DNA of 35,747 nt. Origin: Anaerolineaceae bacterium (lineage in GTDB: Bacteria > Chloroflexota > Anaerolineae > Anaerolineales > Anaerolineaceae). Position 1 is the stretch's first letter. Each line of letters opens with the position of its first letter. Location: contig JAFGLU010000138.1 of assembly GCA_016927865.1 (NCBI GenBank), positions 1 to 35,747 on the forward strand. Reading direction: 5' to 3'. Position numbers and translations under genes: made by a program. Below the pieces are notes generated by a model. That model was not told the origin of the DNA and did not search any database. It saw nothing but the letters and a program-made list of their open reading frames with translations. Below, piece after piece: positions 7,224-17,519 of this stretch.

Positions 7224-7640
7224 CTACGCTTCCACAAGCGTAATCTTATGCTCGATCTCCACAGCCTTGCTCAACATGGCCTGGGCTGAGCAGTACTTCG
7301 TCTCCGAAAGCTCCACAGCTCGCTCCACCGCCGCGCGGTCAATATTCTTGCCTGTCACCACAAACTCCAGCACCACGTGGGTGAACACTTTGGGGTGATC
7401 GGTGGCCCGGTCGGCGTGCGCGCGCACTTCAAACCCGGTCACTTCCTGGCGCTTCTTCTGTAGGATCGAAATCACGTCCATCGCTGTACAGCCCGCCAGC
7501 CCTACCAGCACCAGCTCCATCGGGCGCATTCCGTCATCCGCCCCCCCAAACTCAGCCGATGCCCCCATTCGGATGGTAAACCCTGAGTCCGCGGTGCCGT
7601 CAAACGACATCCCTTGTTTCCAAATCGCTTTCGCATCCAT
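7224..7640 (-). CDS. OsmC/Ohr-family protein
   Basis: This 138-residue protein has the OsmC domain over its whole length. Cys51 lies in LVGLAGCTAMDV and Cys117 in ETKYCSAQAML, the two conserved redox Cys positions of the family. Family members reduce organic or lipid hydroperoxides using thiol donors; the particular subgroup looks YhfA-like and its true substrate is unknown. The ATG lies 2 nt after the stop of the upstream selenocysteine-containing disulfide oxidoreductase, so the two form an operon. That oxidoreductase is a natural candidate for its reductant, by inference. The second codon region (MDAKAIWKQG) matches typical N-termini, supporting this start. Confidence 0.85.
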   Translation of the reverse strand: MDAKAIWKQGMSFDGTADSGFTIRMGASAEFGGADDGMRPMELVLVGLAGCTAMDVISILQKKRQEVTGFEVRAHADRATDHPKVFTHVVLEFVVTGKNIDRAAVERAVELSETKYCSAQAMLSKAVEIEHKITLVEA

Positions 7641-7642
7641 TC

Positions 7643-8314
7643 TTAATTCTCCAATGCCTTCTTAATCTCTGCCACCAGCATATCTTCCGGCGCAGCCCCC
7701 ACCACGTGGTTGGCGCCCAGATTGATCGCCGTATGCGGCACGCCCGAAACACCGTACTTATCAGACAGTTCGCCGAATTCCATTGCGTCCACGCCTTCCG
7801 CCTCCACCAGCGGGCTTTCCATTGCCATGCGGTACGCGAGCAGCACGGCTCGCGGGCAATAAGGTCAGGTAGGGGTGGCAAACACTTCCAGTTTAACCGG
7901 CTTCTTTAGCTCTCCCAGGAACTGACGCGTCTTATCTGAAAGCCCCGAATCCCGCTTGGATACAATCACCAGCGCGTTCACCAGAGTAGAGAACTCGTGT
8001 CCCGCTGGGATGCCCTTAAAGCGTACAGCGTAATCCGTCACACTATCGCCATCACGCCCCGCCAGCACAAACGTCGGGGCAGCGTCCACCTTATACTGAC
8101 TTGCCACCGCGCCGTCCTTTTCCAGGTCATACTGTTTCAAGCTGAGCTTATCTGAAAGCGAGGTGACCTCCTCAAGTAGTTGGCCGGTTTCCTTGCAGTA
8201 CTGGCAGCTTGCCTCATCCTCTGTTCCAAAAAAGAGCACTTCCACCGGCTGGTCGATTTCTGCGAACATTTCGCGCACCTGCTTGCGAATATCTTCATTG
8301 AGCATGTTTTCCAT
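7643..8314 (-). CDS. Two-domain protein disulfide oxidoreductase (PDO, glutaredoxin-like), probable selenoprotein with in-frame TGA
   Basis: Read through the TGA at 7867-7865, this gives 223 residues, the usual length of the archaeal/bacterial PDO family (tandem thioredoxin folds). The N-terminal unit has C37-Q-Y-C40 and an APTF cis-Pro segment. The C-terminal unit reads VFATPT-U150-P-Y-C153-P, followed by a normal thioredoxin-fold end with a GVPHT cis-Pro. Pyrococcus PDO has CQYC and CPYC at these places, so TGA sits precisely at the nucleophilic Cys. Frame and homology continue undisturbed for 73 residues after it. A SECIS-like hairpin follows the TGA, and selA is nearby. The start at 8314 is chosen for GGAGG 8 nt upstream; an earlier in-frame ATG at 8365 adds only 17 unlikely residues. 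OsmC follows 2 nt after the stop. A sequencing error or a nonsense mutation is the alternative. Confidence 0.88.
7835..7867 (-). promoter_or_regulatory. Predicted bacterial SECIS element with its UGA codon
   Basis: On the minus strand the UGA (7867-7865) is followed by 10 nt. Then comes a perfect 7-bp stem CGCGAGC/GCTCGCG (7854-7848 with 7841-7835) closed by the loop CGUGCU. The loop begins 17 nt after the UGA and has a G at its second position, consistent with published bacterial SECIS rules as I recall them. Such hairpins recruit SelB with Sec-tRNA to decode UGA. A few more pairs (UGC/GCA) may form below the stem. Confidence 0.75.
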
Positions 8315-8547: not shown

Positions 8548-8814
8548 TTATCCAGATTTCAGGTAATCTTCCAAATCCAATTTTGAAAACAACCGCTCAC
8601 GCACCGTGGGCGGCAGAGCTTCTTTCTCCGCCTCCATGTGATACAACTCCACCGTCTTGCGCAGCGTATCCACCACTACTCGACAGTTGGAACAGCCCCG
8701 TAGATGCTCTTCCAACTCAGCGCACAGCAATTCGCCCAACGTTCCATCCACATAATCCGAAAGGGAGCCCAGCAAATCCCGGCAATGTCCGTGCTCGTGT
8801 GTGTGTTCGTCCAT
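8548..8814 (-). CDS. Small soluble zinc-type anti-sigma factor
   Basis: From the ATG at 8814 the protein has 88 residues and no membrane segment. It carries the anti-sigma zinc motif H-L-R-G-C-S-N-C (HxxxCxxC), with an additional Cys/His-rich N-terminus (HTHEHGHC) that could give a further ligand. ZAS-family proteins bind and inhibit the ECF sigma factor encoded beside them; some (RsrA, ChrR) release it on thiol oxidation or other stress. The start codon lies 1 nt after the sigma factor's TAA, which makes translational coupling likely and rules against an upstream in-frame ATG at 8874. The signal sensed cannot be read from the sequence. Confidence 0.83.
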   Translation of the reverse strand: MDEHTHEHGHCRDLLGSLSDYVDGTLGELLCAELEEHLRGCSNCRVVVDTLRKTVELYHMEAEKEALPPTVRERLFSKLDLEDYLKSG

Positions 8815-8815
8815 C

Positions 8816-9421
8816 TTACTCACCTTCCACCTTCTGCGCCGCCACCCGCTCGCTCCAATAAGCCGAAAGCTCATCGCGCAGTTTGAGCCTGGCCCGCAGC
8901 AGACGCGTCTTCACCACTTGCTCGCTCACGCCCAGCGCATCCGCGGTTTCCCGTACCGACAGGTCTTCCACATCCCGCAGCAAGAACACCGCTCGCAGCG
9001 GGGGCGACAGAGTTTGCACGGCCCGGTTCAACTGCTGTTTGCCCTCGCCGCTCATCAGTTCGCTCTCTGGCAAGCAGCAAAAATCAGCCAATTCTACCGG
9101 CGCAGGCACATCTTCAGAATCGTCTCCATTATCCTCACCCAACGCCACCTGCGGTTTGCGCTTACGGATCTGCATCAAAGCCTCGTTGACCGCGATGCGA
9201 TATAGCCACGTAGAAAGGCTAGAACGCTCCTCAAAGTTCGGCAGCGAACGCAGCGCTTTAAGATACGCATCTTGCAGTGCATCCTCAGCGTCGGCCTCGT
9301 CTCCCAGCATCTTGAGCAGCAAACGGTAGATCTTCGGTGAGGTTTCCTCCACCAACCGTGCAAACTCGCTCCGGTCGCCGGCTTTCAACGCGGCAATGTC
9401 AAAGTTCAGCCTGTCATTCAT
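8816..9421 (-). CDS. ECF (group 4) RNA polymerase sigma factor
   Basis: This 201-residue protein shows sigma region 2 at about 22-85, with DAEDALQDAYLKALR and STWLYRIAVNEAL motifs. Region 4 follows at about 135-190, with LSPPLRAVFLLRDVEDLS and the helix-turn-helix GVSEQVVKTRLLRARLKL. It has no sigma 1.1 or region 3, as in ECF sigmas. The linker between regions contains a CC pair. It is immediately followed by its presumed anti-sigma factor (1-nt gap), the classical arrangement. It is preceded by tsaD with a 65-nt gap that could hold its own promoter. Its regulon is unknown; the Sec-oxidoreductase/OsmC pair downstream is a plausible target but no shared promoter motif was identified. Confidence 0.9.
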   Translation of the reverse strand: MNDRLNFDIAALKAGDRSEFARLVEETSPKIYRLLLKMLGDEADAEDALQDAYLKALRSLPNFEERSSLSTWLYRIAVNEALMQIRKRKPQVALGEDNGDDSEDVPAPVELADFCCLPESELMSGEGKQQLNRAVQTLSPPLRAVFLLRDVEDLSVRETADALGVSEQVVKTRLLRARLKLRDELSAYWSERVAAQKVEGE

Positions 9422-9486: not shown

Positions 9487-10536
9487 TTACGAAAGCGGCC
9501 AGGTGGGCAGCACGTCCAGGTCCAGCGGGTCGGTGTGCCCCAGGGCGTAGCGGTAGTATCCCGCCGCGGCGATCATAGCGGCGTTGTCGGTGCAGTAGGC
9601 AAAGGCCGGGATGTGCACCGGGAACTGCTGCTGTTCCAGAAAAGCCGTGCGCAGCGCTTTGTTGGCAGAAACACCCCCCGCCAGTAATATTTCCTTGACC
9701 CCAAAGACTTGTGCAGCTCGGAGGGTCTTGCTTATAAGTACATCTACCACTGCCGCCTGGAAGCTGGCCGCCAGGTCTGCCACTGGCAACTCCTTGCCTT
9801 CCTCCTCCAACTTGCGCACCACACGCAGTACCGCCGTCTTCAAGCCGCTAAACGAGAAATTCCAGGTGCCGTCCAGGCGCGAGCGCGGAAAAGCAAATGC
9901 TTCCGGGTTCCCCGTTTCTGCCGCCTTCTGGATGGAAGGCCCGCCCGGATAAGGCAGCCCCAGCAAGCGGGCCACTTTGTCAAAAGCCTCGCCCGCTGCA
10001 TCGTCCAACGTGCTGCCCAGGCGTTTGTAAACCAGATGGTCGGTGATCAGGTTGAGCTCCGAGTGCCCACCCGAAACCAGCAGCGCCAAGAGCGGAAACT
10101 GCGGCTCTGGCGGCGCAATCGTCCCCGCCGGGTACACCCAGGCCGAGTAGATGTGACCTTCCAGGTGGTTGACGCCCACCAGCGGGATGCCCGCCGCCAG
10201 GGCCATGCCCTTGGCCGCGTTCACCCCCACCACCAGCGAGCCCGCCAACCCCGGCCCGCGTGTCACAGCAATCGCATCCACGTCGCTGATGCTAATATGC
10301 GCCTGCTGCAGAGCCTGCTCTACCACCGCGTAGATAGTACGCACGTGCTGCCGCGAGGCCACCTCGGGGAACACTCCGCCGTATTGTTTATGCAAATCTA
10401 TCTGCGATGCCACCACGCTGGATTGCAGCACGCGGCCATTTTCCAGAACAGCCGCTGCTGTCTCATCACAGGATGTTTCAATTCCTAATATCCGCCCAGG
10501 CGGAAAAGTTCGTTCGAATTCGTCGATCTCGTTCAC
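9487..10536 (-). CDS. tsaD: tRNA N6-adenosine threonylcarbamoyltransferase TsaD
   Basis: This 349-residue protein has the Kae1/TsaD signature. Visible are the ASKHA phosphate loop GIETSCDETAAAV, the metal-binding H124-L-E-G-H128, LLVSGGHSEL, the GEAFDK segment, LAGGVSANKALR and a C-terminal CTDNAAMIA motif carrying the metal-binding Asp. It transfers the threonylcarbamoyl group onto A37 of ANN-decoding tRNAs, with TsaB, TsaC and TsaE, which are not in this window. The start is a GTG at 10536. It lies 9 nt after the stop of the M24 peptidase gene, so it belongs to the selA/M24 operon. Family membership is certain. Confidence 0.96.
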   Translation of the reverse strand: MNEIDEFERTFPPGRILGIETSCDETAAAVLENGRVLQSSVVASQIDLHKQYGGVFPEVASRQHVRTIYAVVEQALQQAHISISDVDAIAVTRGPGLAGSLVVGVNAAKGMALAAGIPLVGVNHLEGHIYSAWVYPAGTIAPPEPQFPLLALLVSGGHSELNLITDHLVYKRLGSTLDDAAGEAFDKVARLLGLPYPGGPSIQKAAETGNPEAFAFPRSRLDGTWNFSFSGLKTAVLRVVRKLEEEGKELPVADLAASFQAAVVDVLISKTLRAAQVFGVKEILLAGGVSANKALRTAFLEQQQFPVHIPAFAYCTDNAAMIAAAGYYRYALGHTDPLDLDVLPTWPLS

Positions 10537-10545
10537 GATCTCTTT

Positions 10546-11781
10546 CTATCCTTTTACCGGAAGCACAAAATCCAGAGGGTAAGGCGCCAGCACTTCCATG
10601 ACACCGTCCGGGCGCACCCACACGGTATCTTCCAGTCGCACGCCCATGCCTCGCTCTGGGTAGTACAACCCCGGCTCGATGGTCATGACCGTACCTGGAA
10701 TAAGCAGGTCATCCTGTGCGCCCACCATACGGCTGAAGGGACGTTCGTGAATATGCAGTCCCAGCCCGTGACCCACGCTGTGCACGTAGCCTTCCTCAGT
10801 TTCCGGCGTGTTCAGCACAGACTTGTGGCCTTGGGCTTCAAACAGCTCGCAGGTCCGCCGCTGATACACCGAGAAATCCTCGCCCATCTTCAACTCGCCC
10901 ATCAAGGTGGTGAATACCTCTTTCACCTGCTCGTACAACTTCAACGCCTCGTCGGGAGCATAACCAAGACACCAGGAACGGGTGAAATCATAGAAATACC
11001 CGCCGCCCTCTTCGCAGGGGAAAATATCAAACACAATCGTCTGACCCAGCCGCAGCAAATCGCCCGCGTTGCCGCTGGAATGCGGCACGCCCGCATCCCG
11101 CCCAATGGCAAAGATGGTACCCTCGGGGTTTTCCGCGCCGCGCTCGGCTAGCCAGCGGTTGATCAGCCCTTTCACCTCGCCAATGGTCACCGGTTCGCCA
11201 TCGGCCTTCACCAGCACACCGTCTTTGGCGCGCTGGCTGCTCAGATAATCAGCTACCTGCCCCACCACGCCCGTCGTCACCTTACCCATATTGCGGATGC
11301 GCTCGATCTCGGCGGGTTCCTTCGTGGACATGGATTTTTTGATGATCTTGCCATCCAGGTCGCCGGTGAACACCAGCCCCGGCAGCAGTTCTTGCAGACC
11401 TGTAATCATTGGAAAAACATTCGCCATTTCGGCCACGCCGTAAAGAGCCACCCGACCTTTGCTCAAACCTGCGTCCGCGAACATATGCTTGTAACGCAGC
11501 AGAGCAGCCAGCATACGGTCTCCGTTGGCCTCTTTCAGCAGCTCTGTCAGCGGATAATTCGAATAACTGCGCGTCTCCAGGCCCGATTTGGCCGCCTCAT
11601 CGCGCTCCATCGGCCCGTGGAACAACAATCCCTTCCCATCGCGCGTGAAGATCAGGTCCGCGCCGGTCAGGTGTGCCCCGCCCGTCAGATAAACCATCGC
11701 CGGGTTATGCTGTCCCGGTCCAACCACCAGTAAACCATCCAGATCGTTCTCTTGCATCAATGCGGTCAGGTCGCTTTTCAT
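10546..11781 (-). CDS. M24-family metallopeptidase (Xaa-Pro aminopeptidase/dipeptidase-like)
   Basis: The 411-residue protein has a creatinase N-terminal domain (about 1-140) and a pita-bread catalytic domain. The five M24 metal ligands are visible in order: Asp in VFDIFP, Asp in FYDFTRSW, His in VGHGLGLHIHE, Glu in TIEPGLYY and Glu in VRLEDTVWV. Such enzymes cut N-terminal residues from peptides with Pro at position 2, or dipeptides. The exact specificity cannot be assigned. The gene sits 14 nt after selA and 9 nt before tsaD in an apparent operon. Its N-terminal GGAHLTGADLIF segment is typical of the creatinase-like subgroup. Confidence 0.88.
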   Translation of the reverse strand: MKSDLTALMQENDLDGLLVVGPGQHNPAMVYLTGGAHLTGADLIFTRDGKGLLFHGPMERDEAAKSGLETRSYSNYPLTELLKEANGDRMLAALLRYKHMFADAGLSKGRVALYGVAEMANVFPMITGLQELLPGLVFTGDLDGKIIKKSMSTKEPAEIERIRNMGKVTTGVVGQVADYLSSQRAKDGVLVKADGEPVTIGEVKGLINRWLAERGAENPEGTIFAIGRDAGVPHSSGNAGDLLRLGQTIVFDIFPCEEGGGYFYDFTRSWCLGYAPDEALKLYEQVKEVFTTLMGELKMGEDFSVYQRRTCELFEAQGHKSVLNTPETEEGYVHSVGHGLGLHIHERPFSRMVGAQDDLLIPGTVMTIEPGLYYPERGMGVRLEDTVWVRPDGVMEVLAPYPLDFVLPVKG

Positions 11782-11795
11782 GAAGTTTGCCTCGG

Positions 11796-13160
11796 TTATA
11801 TTTTTCCAAGAATGTTCTTCACCGCCACCAGCAGTGCGCCCTCTTCTTCCGGCAGCACCGTGCGCGGGTCAAAGACCACCAATTCATTTTCCACGCGGGC
11901 AATCACCGGCGGGTTGGCCGCGCGCAGTCGGGCCAGAAACTTGTTCGGTTGCGGCACGTTCAGCGCCAACACAAACGTGCGCAGGGTCTCTTCGGGCAGG
12001 CTGCCCCCGCCTACCGCAGAGTGGGCCTCGATCACTTCGCCCAGGTCCAACACCGCGCGCCAGCGCTGTGCTCGCGCTTCAATCTGCTCAGGCGTTGTGC
12101 CAATCATTCGCCAGATGGGAATTTCGCGTTCCGCCTCATTCTTGAGGTAATGCGTCAAGGTCACTGCCAGCACACCCAGAGCCAGCTTGTCGGCACGCAC
12201 TGCCCGCGCCAGAGGGTGCTTTTTCACCTTCGCCACCAGGTCCGCTTTGCCAATAATAATTCCCGCCTGCGGCCCGCCCAGAAGCTTATCGCCCGAAAAG
12301 CAGATGAGATCGGCCCCGGCCTTCATTGATTCCTGCACCGTCGGCTCGTGAGCCAGCCCGTATTGTTCGGTGTTCAGCAGTGCACCCGATCCCAAATCAT
12401 CCAGCACAATCACACCGCGAGCATGCGCCACCTCCACCAATTCTTCCAGCGAAGGCTCTGTGGTAAAACCCAATATCCGGAAGTTGGAATGGTGAGCACG
12501 CAGCACCAGCGCGGCGGGCTCGTTCAGGGCCTCCTCAAAATCACGGCGGTGCACCCGGTTGGTGGTGCCCACCTCCACCAGTTTAGCCCCCGATTGGTTC
12601 ATCACATCCGGGACGCGGAAACCGCCGCCAATTTCAACCAGTTGACTGCGCGCAATGACCACGCGCTGGCGGCGCGCCAGAGCACTCAAACACAGCAGCA
12701 GCGCCGCAGCGTTGTTGTTCACCACCAAGGCCGCCTCGGCGCCGGTCAGGTGCTTGAGCAGCTCCTCAGCATGCACCGAGCGTGAGCCGCGCACCCCTTT
12801 GGCCAGGTCGTATTCCAGGGTGCAGTAACCCGTCGTCAGGCTCTGCGCCGCGTTCATAGCAGCCCGGCTCAACGGCGCTCGCCCCAGGTTGGTGTGCAGC
12901 ACCACCCCCGTCGCATTGATCACCGGGACGAGCGTGGTGCGCAGCCAGCTTTCCAGGCGGTCAGAAGCCGCATCCAGAATCTGTCCCCGCTCTGGGATGG
13001 TCAGCTCGCCATTTTCCTTTAAACGCCGGCGCAAATCGGTCAGTTCGGCACGAATGGCTTCTAGAGTTAACGGGCGTCCGTATTCAGCCACCAGATTAGC
13101 CGCCTGTTGGGTTTGCAGCAGCGCTTCGACCGCAGGCAGTGCGCGCAGATCAGCGCTCAT
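11796..13160 (-). CDS. selA: L-seryl-tRNA(Sec) selenium transferase (selenocysteine synthase)
   Basis: This 454-residue protein aligns over its full length with bacterial SelA. It has the N-terminal ALPAVEALL domain, NATGVVLHTNLGRAPLS and LEYDLAKGVRGSR. The PLP-binding Lys292 lies in ICFSGDKLLGGPQAG (E. coli position 295), followed by RAVRADKLALGVL. SelA converts Ser-tRNA(Sec) to Sec-tRNA(Sec) with selenophosphate, using PLP. Its presence shows that this genome can make selenocysteine and supports reading the TGA at 7867-7865 as Sec. selB, selD and selC are not in this window. The start overlaps the end of the upstream membrane-protein gene by 11 nt. Confidence 0.96.
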   Translation of the reverse strand: MSADLRALPAVEALLQTQQAANLVAEYGRPLTLEAIRAELTDLRRRLKENGELTIPERGQILDAASDRLESWLRTTLVPVINATGVVLHTNLGRAPLSRAAMNAAQSLTTGYCTLEYDLAKGVRGSRSVHAEELLKHLTGAEAALVVNNNAAALLLCLSALARRQRVVIARSQLVEIGGGFRVPDVMNQSGAKLVEVGTTNRVHRRDFEEALNEPAALVLRAHHSNFRILGFTTEPSLEELVEVAHARGVIVLDDLGSGALLNTEQYGLAHEPTVQESMKAGADLICFSGDKLLGGPQAGIIIGKADLVAKVKKHPLARAVRADKLALGVLAVTLTHYLKNEAEREIPIWRMIGTTPEQIEARAQRWRAVLDLGEVIEAHSAVGGGSLPEETLRTFVLALNVPQPNKFLARLRAANPPVIARVENELVVFDPRTVLPEEEGALLVAVKNILGKI

Positions 13161-13813: not shown

Positions 13814-13926
13814 CCACTCATCCAGAGAGGTGGAGGGACCGGCCCTGTGAACCCTCGGCAACCAGGCCAACCGCCCGGTGCCAATTCCGGCAGAAGCCGC
13901 ACGAGCGGCGTTCTGGAAGATGAGAG
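13814..13926 (+). ncRNA. SAM-I (S-box) riboswitch aptamer
   Basis: The conserved S-box core is clear: AGAGAGGTGGAGGGA, then CCCTGTGAACCCTCGGCAACC, GGTGCCAATTCC, and a closing GATGAGAG. P1 is formed by CTCATC (13817-13822) with GATGAG (13919-13924). SAM binding stabilises P1 and favours the downstream terminator. The element precedes metH and a homocysteine methyltransferase/MTHFR gene, fitting repression of methionine synthesis when SAM is abundant. Confidence 0.95.
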
Positions 13927-13944
13927 TTGCGCTGAGCAAATCGG

Positions 13945-13970
13945 CCTCTCCACTCCAGAGAGGATTTTTG
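13945..13970 (+). terminator. Riboswitch-controlled intrinsic terminator
   Basis: CCTCTC (13945-13950) pairs with GAGAGG (13958-13963), followed by ATTTTTG. The CTCTC can alternatively pair with GAGAG at 13922-13926, the 3' side of aptamer P1, giving a simple antiterminator that SAM binding would prevent. This is the standard S-box logic; the alternative pairing is inferred. Confidence 0.8.
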
Positions 13971-13997
13971 TTTAAATCAACCCTTATTGGAGGGACT

Positions 13998-16900
13998 ATG
14001 ACACGAAAATACACCAACCGAAAATATCTCGACCTGCTTGCCCAAAAAGTCCTGGTTTTTGACGGGGCGATGGGCACCAGCCTGCAAAAGCTAAACCTCA
14101 CCGCTGCCGACTTTGGCGGCGAGCGCACCAACGGCTGCAACGATTACCTGGTCATCACCGCCCCTCAGGCGGTCGAAACCGTGCACCGTTCCTTCTTGGA
14201 CGCGGGCGTGGATGTAATTGAAACCGACACCTTCCGCGCAAACCGCCTCACCCTGACCGAATACGGTTTGCAAGATCAGGTCGACGCCATCAACGGCGCC
14301 GCCGCGCAGCTGGCCCGCCGCCTGGCCGACGAATACACACAACAAACCGGGCAGCAACGCCTGGTAGCTGGATCACTTGGTCCCACCGGCAAACTGCCCT
14401 CCATGAGCGATCCCGAGCTATCCAATGTTGCCTTCGCCGAACTGGCCGACATCTTCCGCGAACAGGCCGCCGCTTTGATCTCTGGCGGCGTGGACCTGCT
14501 CCTGATCGAAACCTCTCAGGATATTCTGGAAGTCAAAGCTGTCATCGTAGGCATTCAAGCCGCTTTTGAGCAAACTGGCATCTACCTGCCCATCCAGGCC
14601 CAGGTCACCCTCGATACCACCGGGCGCATGCTGCTTGGCACCGACAGTTCCGCCGTCACCGCCATCCTGGAAGACTTCCCCATCGACGCCATCGGCCTCA
14701 ACTGCTCCACCGGCCCCGACTACATGCGCGAGCCGCTGCGCTATCTCACCGAAACCGCCCACCTGCCCGTGTCCTGCATACCCAACGCTGGACTGCCCCT
14801 GAACGTGGATGGCCAGGCAGTTTATCCACTGCAACCCGAGCCCTTTGCTGACACCCTGGCCTCCTACGTCGAAAAATTCGGCGTGCGCATTGTCGGCGGC
14901 TGCTGCGGCACCACCCCCGAGCACATGCGTCTGCTGGTGGACCGCCTGAGCGGAATAACCGCCCAGCCCAGCCCAGCCCCGCGCCAGCCGCGCCTGTCTT
15001 CGGCCACCGCCGCCCAGCCCATGATTCAAGAGCCCCCGCCCTTCCTCATCGGCGAGCGCATCAACACCCAGGGCAGCGCTAAGTTTAAAAAGATGATCCT
15101 GGCTGAAGACTTCGAAGGAGCCCTGGAAATCGCCCGCACTCAGGTTGAATCCGGCGCCCACGGTTTGGACCTGTGCACCGCCCTCACCGAACGCCCTGAC
15201 GAAGGCGAACTGATGCGCCGCCTGATCAAAGCGCTCGCTCCTTCTGTGCGCGTGCCCTTTATCATCGACAGCACTGAGCCCGAGGTGGTGGAAATCGCCC
15301 TGCAAACCGCCCCCGGCCGCTGCCTGATCAACTCCACCAATCTTGAAGCCGGGCGCGCCAAAGCAGACAAAATTTTCTCCCTGGCCCGCAAGTACAACGC
15401 CGCTGTCATCGCCCTCACCATCGACGAGCAAGGCATGGCCAAAACTGCCCAGCGCAAGCTGGAGGTCGCCCGCCGCATCCACGACATTGCCGTCGGGGAA
15501 TATGGCTTCCAGCCCCACGACCTGGTCTTTGACGACCTGACCTTCACGCTGGCCACCGGCGATCCCGAGTTTGCCCAATCAGCCCTGGAGACCATCGAGG
15601 GCATCCGCGTCATCAAGGCGGCTATGCCCGGCGTGCTCACCTCGCTGGGCGTGTCCAATGTCTCCTTCGGCCTCACCCCGCCCGCCCGCGCCGCCATCAA
15701 CAGTGTCATGCTTTACCACTGCGTGCAAGCCGGCCTGGATATGGCCATCGTCAACCCGGCCACCATCACCCCCTACGCCGACATTCCTGCCGAAGAGCGC
15801 GAACTGGCCGAGGATCTGATCTTCGCCCGCCGCGCCGATGCCCTCCAGCGCTTGATCGAGCACTTTGAGCACGCCGGCCCGGCTAAGGCCTCCAAAGCCG
15901 ACAACCTCCAGGCTGCCCTGCTCAGCATGACTGCCGAGGAGCGCCTGGGTTATCGTATTTTGCACCGTCTGCCCAATGGCATTGAGATCGACATCGACGA
16001 GCTTATCCACCGCCCCACGCCCCTCACCCGCCACGAAGCCGCCATCGAGGTACTCAACGGCATCCTCCTTCCCGCCATGAAAGAGGTCGGTGACAAGTTC
16101 GGCGCGGGCGAGCTCATCCTGCCCTTCGTGCTCCAATCCGCCGAGGTGATGAAGAAAGCCGTCTCGCACCTGGAAAACTACCTGGAAAAGAAAGAAGGCG
16201 TGGCCAAGGGTATCCTGGTGCTGGCTACGGTCTACGGTGACGTTCACGACATCGGCAAGAACCTCGTCAAAACCATCCTCTCCAACAACGGCTACCAGGT
16301 CATCGACATCGGCAAGCAAGTACCCGCCGACACCATCATCTCCCGCGCCGTAGAAGCCAACGCCGACGCCATCGGCCTCAGTGCGCTGCTGGTCAGCACC
16401 AGCAAGCAAATGAGCCTCATCGTCAACGAACTGCAGCGCCGCGGGCTGTCCTTCCCGGTGCTCATCGGCGGGGCGGCCATCAACCGCCGCTTCGGACGCC
16501 GCATTCTGCAAACTGAATCCGGTGATTCTTATGCGCCGGGGGTATTCTACTGCAAGGATGCCTTCGAGGGTCTCAGCACCATGGATGCCCTCATGAACCC
16601 CGCCTCGCACAGTGACCTGCTTGAACGCATCCACCGTGAATCGGAGATAGAGTTGGGCCGGGTACCATCCGGTAACGGAAGCAGCGTAACCCCGGCAGCC
16701 CGCTCCGATGTACCCACCCTCGAGAAATTGCCCGTGCCGCCCACCTGGGGTCCTCGCGTGGTGCGCGAAATGCCCCTGGAGGCCGTCTTCCAACACCTCT
16801 CCATTAACGAACTCTTCCGTTTGTCTTGGGGCGCCAAGAACACCCACGGCGACGCCTGGATCAAGCTGGAGGCCGAATACCAGCAGCGCCTGGATGAGAT

Positions 16901-17519
16901 GCGCCGCCAGGCCATTGCGGACGGCTGGCTGCGCCCGCAAGCCGTGTACGGCTACTGGCCTGTCCAGGCCCAGGGCAACGACCTCGTTGTTTACGACCCC
17001 GCCAGCCTGGCCGCCAAGGAACCCAGTGAGCTGTTGCGCCTGAACTTCCCGCGCCAGCCCGAAGGCGACCATCTTTGCCTGGCGGATTATTTCGCTCCGC
17101 AAGACTCGGGTAAGATGGACGTGGTCTCCCTCCAGGTGGTCACGGTTGGGCAGAATGCCACGGCATTGTTCGACAAAATGCAGGAGCAGGGCCAGTACAG
17201 CGAGGCTTACTTCATCCACGGGCTGGCCGTTCAAACCGCCGAAGCCACCGCCGATTACCTTCACGAGCACATCCGCCGCGAGTTAGGCTTGCCTGCCGGG
17301 CAGGGTAAGCGCTACTCCTGGGGCTACCCGGCCATTCCTGAGCTTTCCGACCACCAGAAGGTGTTCCAGTTGCTGCCCGTCGAATCCGAATTGGGCATGA
17401 CTCTGACCTCGGCCTTCCAACTGGTTCCCGAACAGTCCACCGCCGCCATCATCGTCCACCACCCCGCTGCCAAGTATTTCAACGTGGGCGAGAACCGCGT
17501 GGAACAACTGATGAGGTAA
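13998..17519 (+). CDS. metH: Cobalamin-dependent methionine synthase
   Basis: The ATG at 13998 follows GGAGG with good spacing and gives 1173 residues, the full MetH length. Earlier in-frame starts lie in the riboswitch and are rejected. Domains in order: homocysteine-binding barrel (about 10-330) with zinc ligands C236, C302 and C303; pterin-binding barrel (about 345-620) beginning at the GERINTQGS motif; and cap plus B12-binding domains (about 640-880) with D748-V-H750-D-I-G753, where His750 is the cobalt ligand. A C-terminal SAM-dependent reactivation domain (about 905-1173) has RYSWGYPAIPEL. It makes methionine from homocysteine and methyl-THF. It is regulated by the SAM-I riboswitch and coupled to the next gene, 2 nt downstream. 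Confidence 0.97.
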   Translation: MTRKYTNRKYLDLLAQKVLVFDGAMGTSLQKLNLTAADFGGERTNGCNDYLVITAPQAVETVHRSFLDAGVDVIETDTFRANRLTLTEYGLQDQVDAINGAAAQLARRLADEYTQQTGQQRLVAGSLGPTGKLPSMSDPELSNVAFAELADIFREQAAALISGGVDLLLIETSQDILEVKAVIVGIQAAFEQTGIYLPIQAQVTLDTTGRMLLGTDSSAVTAILEDFPIDAIGLNCSTGPDYMREPLRYLTETAHLPVSCIPNAGLPLNVDGQAVYPLQPEPFADTLASYVEKFGVRIVGGCCGTTPEHMRLLVDRLSGITAQPSPAPRQPRLSSATAAQPMIQEPPPFLIGERINTQGSAKFKKMILAEDFEGALEIARTQVESGAHGLDLCTALTERPDEGELMRRLIKALAPSVRVPFIIDSTEPEVVEIALQTAPGRCLINSTNLEAGRAKADKIFSLARKYNAAVIALTIDEQGMAKTAQRKLEVARRIHDIAVGEYGFQPHDLVFDDLTFTLATGDPEFAQSALETIEGIRVIKAAMPGVLTSLGVSNVSFGLTPPARAAINSVMLYHCVQAGLDMAIVNPATITPYADIPAEERELAEDLIFARRADALQRLIEHFEHAGPAKASKADNLQAALLSMTAEERLGYRILHRLPNGIEIDIDELIHRPTPLTRHEAAIEVLNGILLPAMKEVGDKFGAGELILPFVLQSAEVMKKAVSHLENYLEKKEGVAKGILVLATVYGDVHDIGKNLVKTILSNNGYQVIDIGKQVPADTIISRAVEANADAIGLSALLVSTSKQMSLIVNELQRRGLSFPVLIGGAAINRRFGRRILQTESGDSYAPGVFYCKDAFEGLSTMDALMNPASHSDLLERIHRESEIELGRVPSGNGSSVTPAARSDVPTLEKLPVPPTWGPRVVREMPLEAVFQHLSINELFRLSWGAKNTHGDAWIKLEAEYQQRLDEMRRQAIADGWLRPQAVYGYWPVQAQGNDLVVYDPASLAAKEPSELLRLNFPRQPEGDHLCLADYFAPQDSGKMDVVSLQVVTVGQNATALFDKMQEQGQYSEAYFIHGLAVQTAEATADYLHEHIRRELGLPAGQGKRYSWGYPAIPELSDHQKVFQLLPVESELGMTLTSAFQLVPEQSTAAIIVHHPAAKYFNVGENRVEQLMR

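Follow-up and report, generated by a model that had tools for sequence, protein, structure and literature searches.

Described selenocysteine-containing members of the PDO family

Selenocysteine (Sec) has already been recorded in the protein disulfide oxidoreductase (PDO) family TIGR02187, whose NCBIfam name is PDO_seleno_TRX. In the excerpts of the literature available to us, a Sec-containing "homolog of AhpF, amino-terminal domain" is tabulated for two genomes, those of Carboxydothermus hydrogenoformans and Symbiobacterium thermophilum (PMC1794560, from 2006), TIGR02187 is tied to a Sec family with a UxxC motif (PMC9312934, PMC13188914), and four Sec-containing TIGR02187 sequences are given from Asgard archaea (PMC11227280). 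The preliminary description of the DNA analysed here (35,747 nucleotides of contig JAFGLU010000138.1, assembly GCA_016927865.1, from an Anaerolineaceae bacterium; "the window" below is this whole stretch) had presented its PDO as an undetected selenoprotein and knew of no described Sec form; the sequences tabulated in these excerpts do not support either point. By the same excerpts the window's PDO belongs to the published family and has its Sec in UxxC, but it comes from a phylum other than that of the bacterial examples Carboxydothermus and Symbiobacterium. Titles and abstract openings in the literature on PDO and selenocysteine, and on selenoproteins and Anaerolineae, contain no description of an Anaerolineae Sec-PDO. 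As Sec members of TIGR02187 are published and none from Anaerolineae appears at that level of the literature, the window's PDO adds a member to a selenoprotein family that was already known, in a phylum other than that of the examples in these sources.

The PDO of Pyrococcus furiosus (1A8L) has in common with the window's protein two thioredoxin folds and the CQYC and CxxC motifs at aligned sites (TM 0.90), but has Cys at the C-terminal motif where Sec is predicted here, and shares 34% identity. The fold is likewise common to the N-terminal domain of AhpF (1ZYN, 5H29), from which the window's PDO differs in being a stand-alone gene and in keeping, by sequence and predicted structure, a CxxC-type motif in both thioredoxin folds, the second as UxxC. 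A related domain also occurs in AhpF and in TIGR03143, joined there to a thioredoxin-reductase part.

The reading frame and its active-site TGA

The gene has the following features:

7643..8314, minus strand: PDO (TIGR02187) gene, predicted Sec at one TGA, 223 aa (profile match, 1A8L alignment, AlphaFold2 model)
8195..8206, minus strand: CQYC, N-terminal redox motif, residues 37-40 (alignment)
7865..7867, minus strand, read 7867-7865: in-frame TGA, codon 150, predicted Sec (recurrence in relatives)
7856..7867, minus strand: UPYC, C-terminal redox motif, residues 150-153 (alignment)
7736..7738, minus strand: Pro193, in V-P, where the cis-Pro loop of the C-terminal domain is expected (invariant in 16 sequences)

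The frame from 8314 to 7643 runs from ATG to TAA. As the preliminary description had stated, it contains a lone internal TGA, which is codon 150. Open frames around a TGA are no evidence taken alone: the six frames of the window hold 27 TGA codons, that of the PDO included, which are preceded by 90 or more open codons and followed by 50 or more. Since such frames are common by chance in the window, it is homology that singles out the PDO TGA. Read through, the protein matches TIGR02187 with 261.5 bits (cut-off 185; residues 7-220 on model positions 2-209 of 209) and 1A8L with an E-value of 7.4e-38 (residues 10-221), which upholds the earlier assignment to the PDO family. The 1A8L alignment also bears out that the Pyrococcus enzyme has CQYC and CPYC at matching positions, and places the TGA codon on the first Cys of CPYC; the relatives agree with this placement, which had been claimed from the window's letters alone. 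An AlphaFold2 model, calculated with Cys for Sec from a 16-row alignment, has a mean pLDDT of 94.9 and 1A8L as its best PDB match. We consider it about 95% probable that the gene encodes a Sec form of PDO in which two thioredoxin folds are joined, the first carrying CQYC and the second Sec-Pro-Tyr-Cys. Disulfide reductase or isomerase activity is predicted for it.

Recurrence of the TGA in relatives

The search covered 121 genomes, the window's own and 120 relatives. TIGR02187 exceeded its cut-off in 55 of them with 57 matches, of which 43 contain no stop and 14 (own included) exactly one TGA, in each case at U-P-Y-C or U-P-H-C. The recurrence that the preliminary description had proposed to look for is thus present in 13 of the 120 relatives, and it extends to named genome contigs. 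There, a scan with a single protein as query found no relative; among the best 80 of 584 stretches confirmed by an alignment-based scan, 15 have the TGA, always at the same position, and three of these (L100, L111, L132) appear to be counted already among the 121 genomes. The non-redundant set drawn from the 121 genomes and the best 80 of 584 named-contig matches comprises 126 genes, 26 with Sec and 100 with Cys (TGC 67, TGT 33). Viral contigs contributed two loci, one with CPYC (L171, left out of the tree) and one with a partial match only (L172).

A nonsense mutation, leaving a truncated protein or a decaying pseudogene, would accord with TGA being a stop under table 11 and with the N-terminal domain alone forming a complete thioredoxin fold. 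We regard this as highly improbable. None of the 57 above-cut-off homologues has a TAA, a TAG or a second TGA, the identical TGA site occurs in distant species, and the start and the spacing to the downstream OsmC gene are kept. The random disruption of the C-terminal half in relatives, which the preliminary description had considered, is not what we observe: this half is intact, and pN lies well below pS downstream of the TGA in all nine pairs tested (in the Sec-Sec pair L118/L119, pS is 0.356 and pN 0.006 over 70 codons). By this substitution pattern, the stretch after the TGA is under purifying selection.

Three Sec-type PDOs (L057, L058, L059) have no N-terminal CxxC, which points to the C-terminal motif as the main active site. 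In L055, whose sequence includes ambiguous residues, the N-terminal motif is CELC. The PDO of this Anaerolineae-type bacterium very probably carries Sec in its main active site by way of a recoded stop codon; mere chance is a very unlikely source of the TGA.

A SECIS-type stem-loop at a fixed position

Downstream of the UGA we found a candidate for the bacterial SECIS whose search had been recommended:

7836..7853, minus strand: bacterial SECIS-type stem-loop, 6-bp stem GCGAGC/GCUCGC, 6-nt loop CGUGCU (PMC13188914 model and comparison of relatives)

The bacterial SECIS model, as given in the legend to Fig. 2 of PMC13188914, has a stem of 4-16 bp, a loop of 3-9 nt with a G among its first two nucleotides, a spacing of 16-37 nt and an MFE of at most -7.5. 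The window's stem-loop satisfies all limits of the model as stated in that legend: the stem has 6-7 bp and begins 11 nt past the UGA, the 6-nt loop has G second, then U, with a spacing of 17 nt, and the MFE is -18.3 kcal/mol (46 nt). The folding z-score is -2.73 over 46 nt and -1.99 over 53 nt. The seventh pair, C-G at 7835/7854, is conserved in only 6 of the 26 Sec genes. While the window's gene shows no departure from the model in that legend, the model's G rule is missed by two of the 26 Sec relatives (L053, L056), in which the loop-closing pair is broken and the first two loop positions therefore lack a G.

At this fixed place all six stem pairs are present in 22 of 26 Sec genes but in only 3 of 100 Cys genes, and the loop begins with CGTG in 24 of the Sec and 6 of the Cys genes. 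The incomplete Sec stems retain five pairs in three genes and three of six in L112, which has a shifted hairpin besides. Shuffling synonymous codons predicts a full stem in 2.7% of Sec genes; it was observed in 11 of 14. L074, with the motif CAFC, is absent from this count and from the folding-energy count because the motif search missed CAFC. On the strongly supported branches of the tree there are eight independent Sec/Cys pairs, in which, averaged, the stem accompanies Sec in 6.7 and runs against it in 0.0 (median p 0.0156, range 0.0156-0.0625). Pairing falls from 85.7% to 14-56% when the partner columns are slid. Covariation analysis found six cells in which both sides had changed (0 of 500 shuffles), these double-sided changes being confined to one stem pair, as in 346 of 500 shuffles.

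Less specific tests were rejected. By folding energy alone, Sec and Cys genes are not told apart (p 0.11; z-scores p 0.018), and a loose SECIS-like hairpin is also found in 70 of the 100 Cys genes. An Rfam search gave no match at the stem-loop. Across the genes compared here, the position-specific six-pair stem is the test that discriminates putative SECIS elements. The three Cys-type genes with all six pairs at the SECIS position (L043, L123, L169) may owe them to chance or may preserve relics of a former Sec codon.

The comparison also bears on whether TGC or TGT was turned into TGA by a sequencing or assembly error. Such an error would need one base only, and the window is a contig of a MAG (147 contigs, 84.5% complete). 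Against it, 26 distinct genes, drawn from many assemblies, share TGA at this codon, and the accompanying stem-loop is nearly absent from Cys genes; we hold it to be the least probable of the alternatives, with scarcely any weight.

Selenocysteine machinery of the genomes

One gene of the machinery lies inside the window:

11796..13160, minus strand: selA, L-seryl-tRNA(Sec) selenium transferase (540 bits, cut-off 267.9)

The preliminary description had named the absence of selB, selC or selD as an argument against Sec. Two of these are present over their cut-offs, as is selA: the tRNA-Sec (selC) scores 74.6 bits, and selD has its own TGA in SSCAG-U-ASKL. For selB there are only two pieces at contig ends, with 229.9 and 93.4 bits, both under the cut-off of 242.25; one spans 568 codons from base 1 of contig C50, the other, N-terminal, lies at the edge of C109, and they are best read as one gene split by assembly. 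With selA, selC and selD over cut-off and selB in pieces below it, the genome has the Sec decoding trait. The selD gene (G000:C97:29967-30902, locus L061), with one internal TGA, is a second predicted selenoprotein.

That homologues have Cys at this codon might indicate that TGA is decoded as Cys, or else Trp, through a changed genetic code or plain read-through. Against this stand the Sec machinery, the Sec-specific stem-loop and the one other known Sec site checked, in selD, which is likewise TGA; we deem such decoding very unlikely.

Among the 14 Sec-PDO genomes, selA is over cut-off in 11 (missing in G042, partial in G027 and G073) and tRNA-Sec is found in 10, with no match at E 1e-10 in G026, G040, G073 and G079. 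No Sec-PDO genome lacks matches to both, G073 having only a broken-up selA match. In that genome, selA is present as two overlapping pieces (G073:C6:30365-31518), possibly a frameshift or a loss of the Sec trait in progress. In the 41 genomes whose PDO is of the Cys form only, selA exceeds its cut-off in 33. Neither selA nor tRNA-Sec is present in five Cys-PDO genomes (G082, G084, G097, G107, G109).

Gene neighbourhood and possible function

Five further genes surround the PDO on the same strand:

7224..7640, minus strand: OsmC-family protein, Cys at both expected positions, 2 nt downstream of PDO (profile match)
8548..8874, minus strand: zinc-finger-type anti-sigma factor with HxxxCxxC (zf-HC2 over cut-off)
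8816..9421, minus strand: ECF sigma factor (profile match)
9487..10536, minus strand: tsaD, conserved neighbour (recurs in relatives)
10546..11781, minus strand: M24 metallopeptidase, conserved neighbour (recurs in relatives)

The OsmC frame thus lies where the preliminary description had put it. The order selA - M24 - tsaD - ECF sigma - anti-sigma - PDO - OsmC recurs in Sec and Cys relatives. In the 15 wide loci (13 Sec, 2 Cys), OsmC directly follows PDO in 12 and the anti-sigma gene precedes it in 12; over all loci with room, OsmC adjoins PDO in 32 of 94 and the anti-sigma gene in 44 of 87. HxxxCxxC is present in every upstream anti-sigma match except L157. The window's anti-sigma factor reaches 34.5 bits against TIGR03988 (RsrA), under the cut-off of 62.5, whereas its zf-HC2 domain is over cut-off. 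In ten relatives (L093, L095, L097, L099, L108, L114, L117, L121, L131, L133) a WCPPC thioredoxin-like gene, absent in the window, stands between PDO and OsmC; by eye these proteins have an apparent N-terminal membrane anchor, and two are AhpC-TSA/Redoxin by Pfam. We also considered OsmC as a second selenoprotein and rejected this, as its matches in the inspected loci contain no TGA. Elsewhere in the window, a SAM riboswitch (13815-13926, plus strand) precedes methionine synthase (13878-17519), for which the annotated start falls within the riboswitch match and has probably been set too far upstream.

Gene order suggests that the PDO is functionally coupled to OsmC. The recurrent gene order, the thioredoxin-like neighbours in relatives, the anti-sigma factor with HxxxCxxC and a thioredoxin reductase encoded elsewhere in the genome (C10:1418-2314) lead us to propose a thiol-redox operon around the PDO. 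By established knowledge, SelB with Sec-tRNA would bind the stem-loop and insert Sec at the UGA. Sec150 would then attack disulfides, or be attacked as a selenenylsulfide with Cys153, and could be re-reduced from NADPH by the thioredoxin reductase, directly or via the N-terminal CQYC. Judged by gene order, likely substrates would be the OsmC peroxidase next to it, at its resolving disulfide, and the anti-sigma factor with HxxxCxxC that belongs to the neighbouring ECF pair; in a thiol-stress operon, the PDO might serve both, in repair and in resetting the switch.

Switching between selenocysteine and cysteine

The window's genus contains both Sec and Cys forms of PDO. On a quick tree calculated with the U/C column masked, the Sec/Cys label requires 17 changes, versus 24.0 in shuffles, and at least eight of the 17 are forced by well-supported branches. 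A single clade for all 26 Sec genes was rejected on this tree (p 6.7e-137). Within the window's genus, however, the two Sec members (the window and L049) may be sisters, a grouping that is not rejected (p 0.891), so that switching within the genus is not forced.

The new aspect of the family is possibly this recurrent Sec/Cys switching in Anaerolineae PDOs, with the stem tracking Sec, within a thiol-redox gene cluster. A more far-reaching reading, which we offer tentatively and at somewhat less than even odds, is that the Anaerolineae PDO active site underwent many switches between Cys and Sec, and that with each of them the six-pair SECIS stem, spelled by synonymous codons at a single fixed position, was gained or lost. 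The gene would meanwhile have been kept in the selA / ECF sigma / anti-sigma / PDO / OsmC cluster, and the Sec enzyme would provide reduction and feedback in a thiol-stress switch.

Such genes are split in two when annotation takes TGA only for a stop. With the 26 distinct Sec genes in the 126-gene set, a selenoprotein family that has been described only sparsely gains a branch of some size in Anaerolineae. Since these genes have Cys counterparts close by, also in the window's own genus, the long-standing question of what makes enzymes employ Sec becomes directly testable, as does the gain and loss of SECIS elements within coding sequence. If the far-reaching reading is true, the family would offer a ready natural experiment on the benefit that an enzyme draws from Sec and on the origin of a SECIS within coding sequence.
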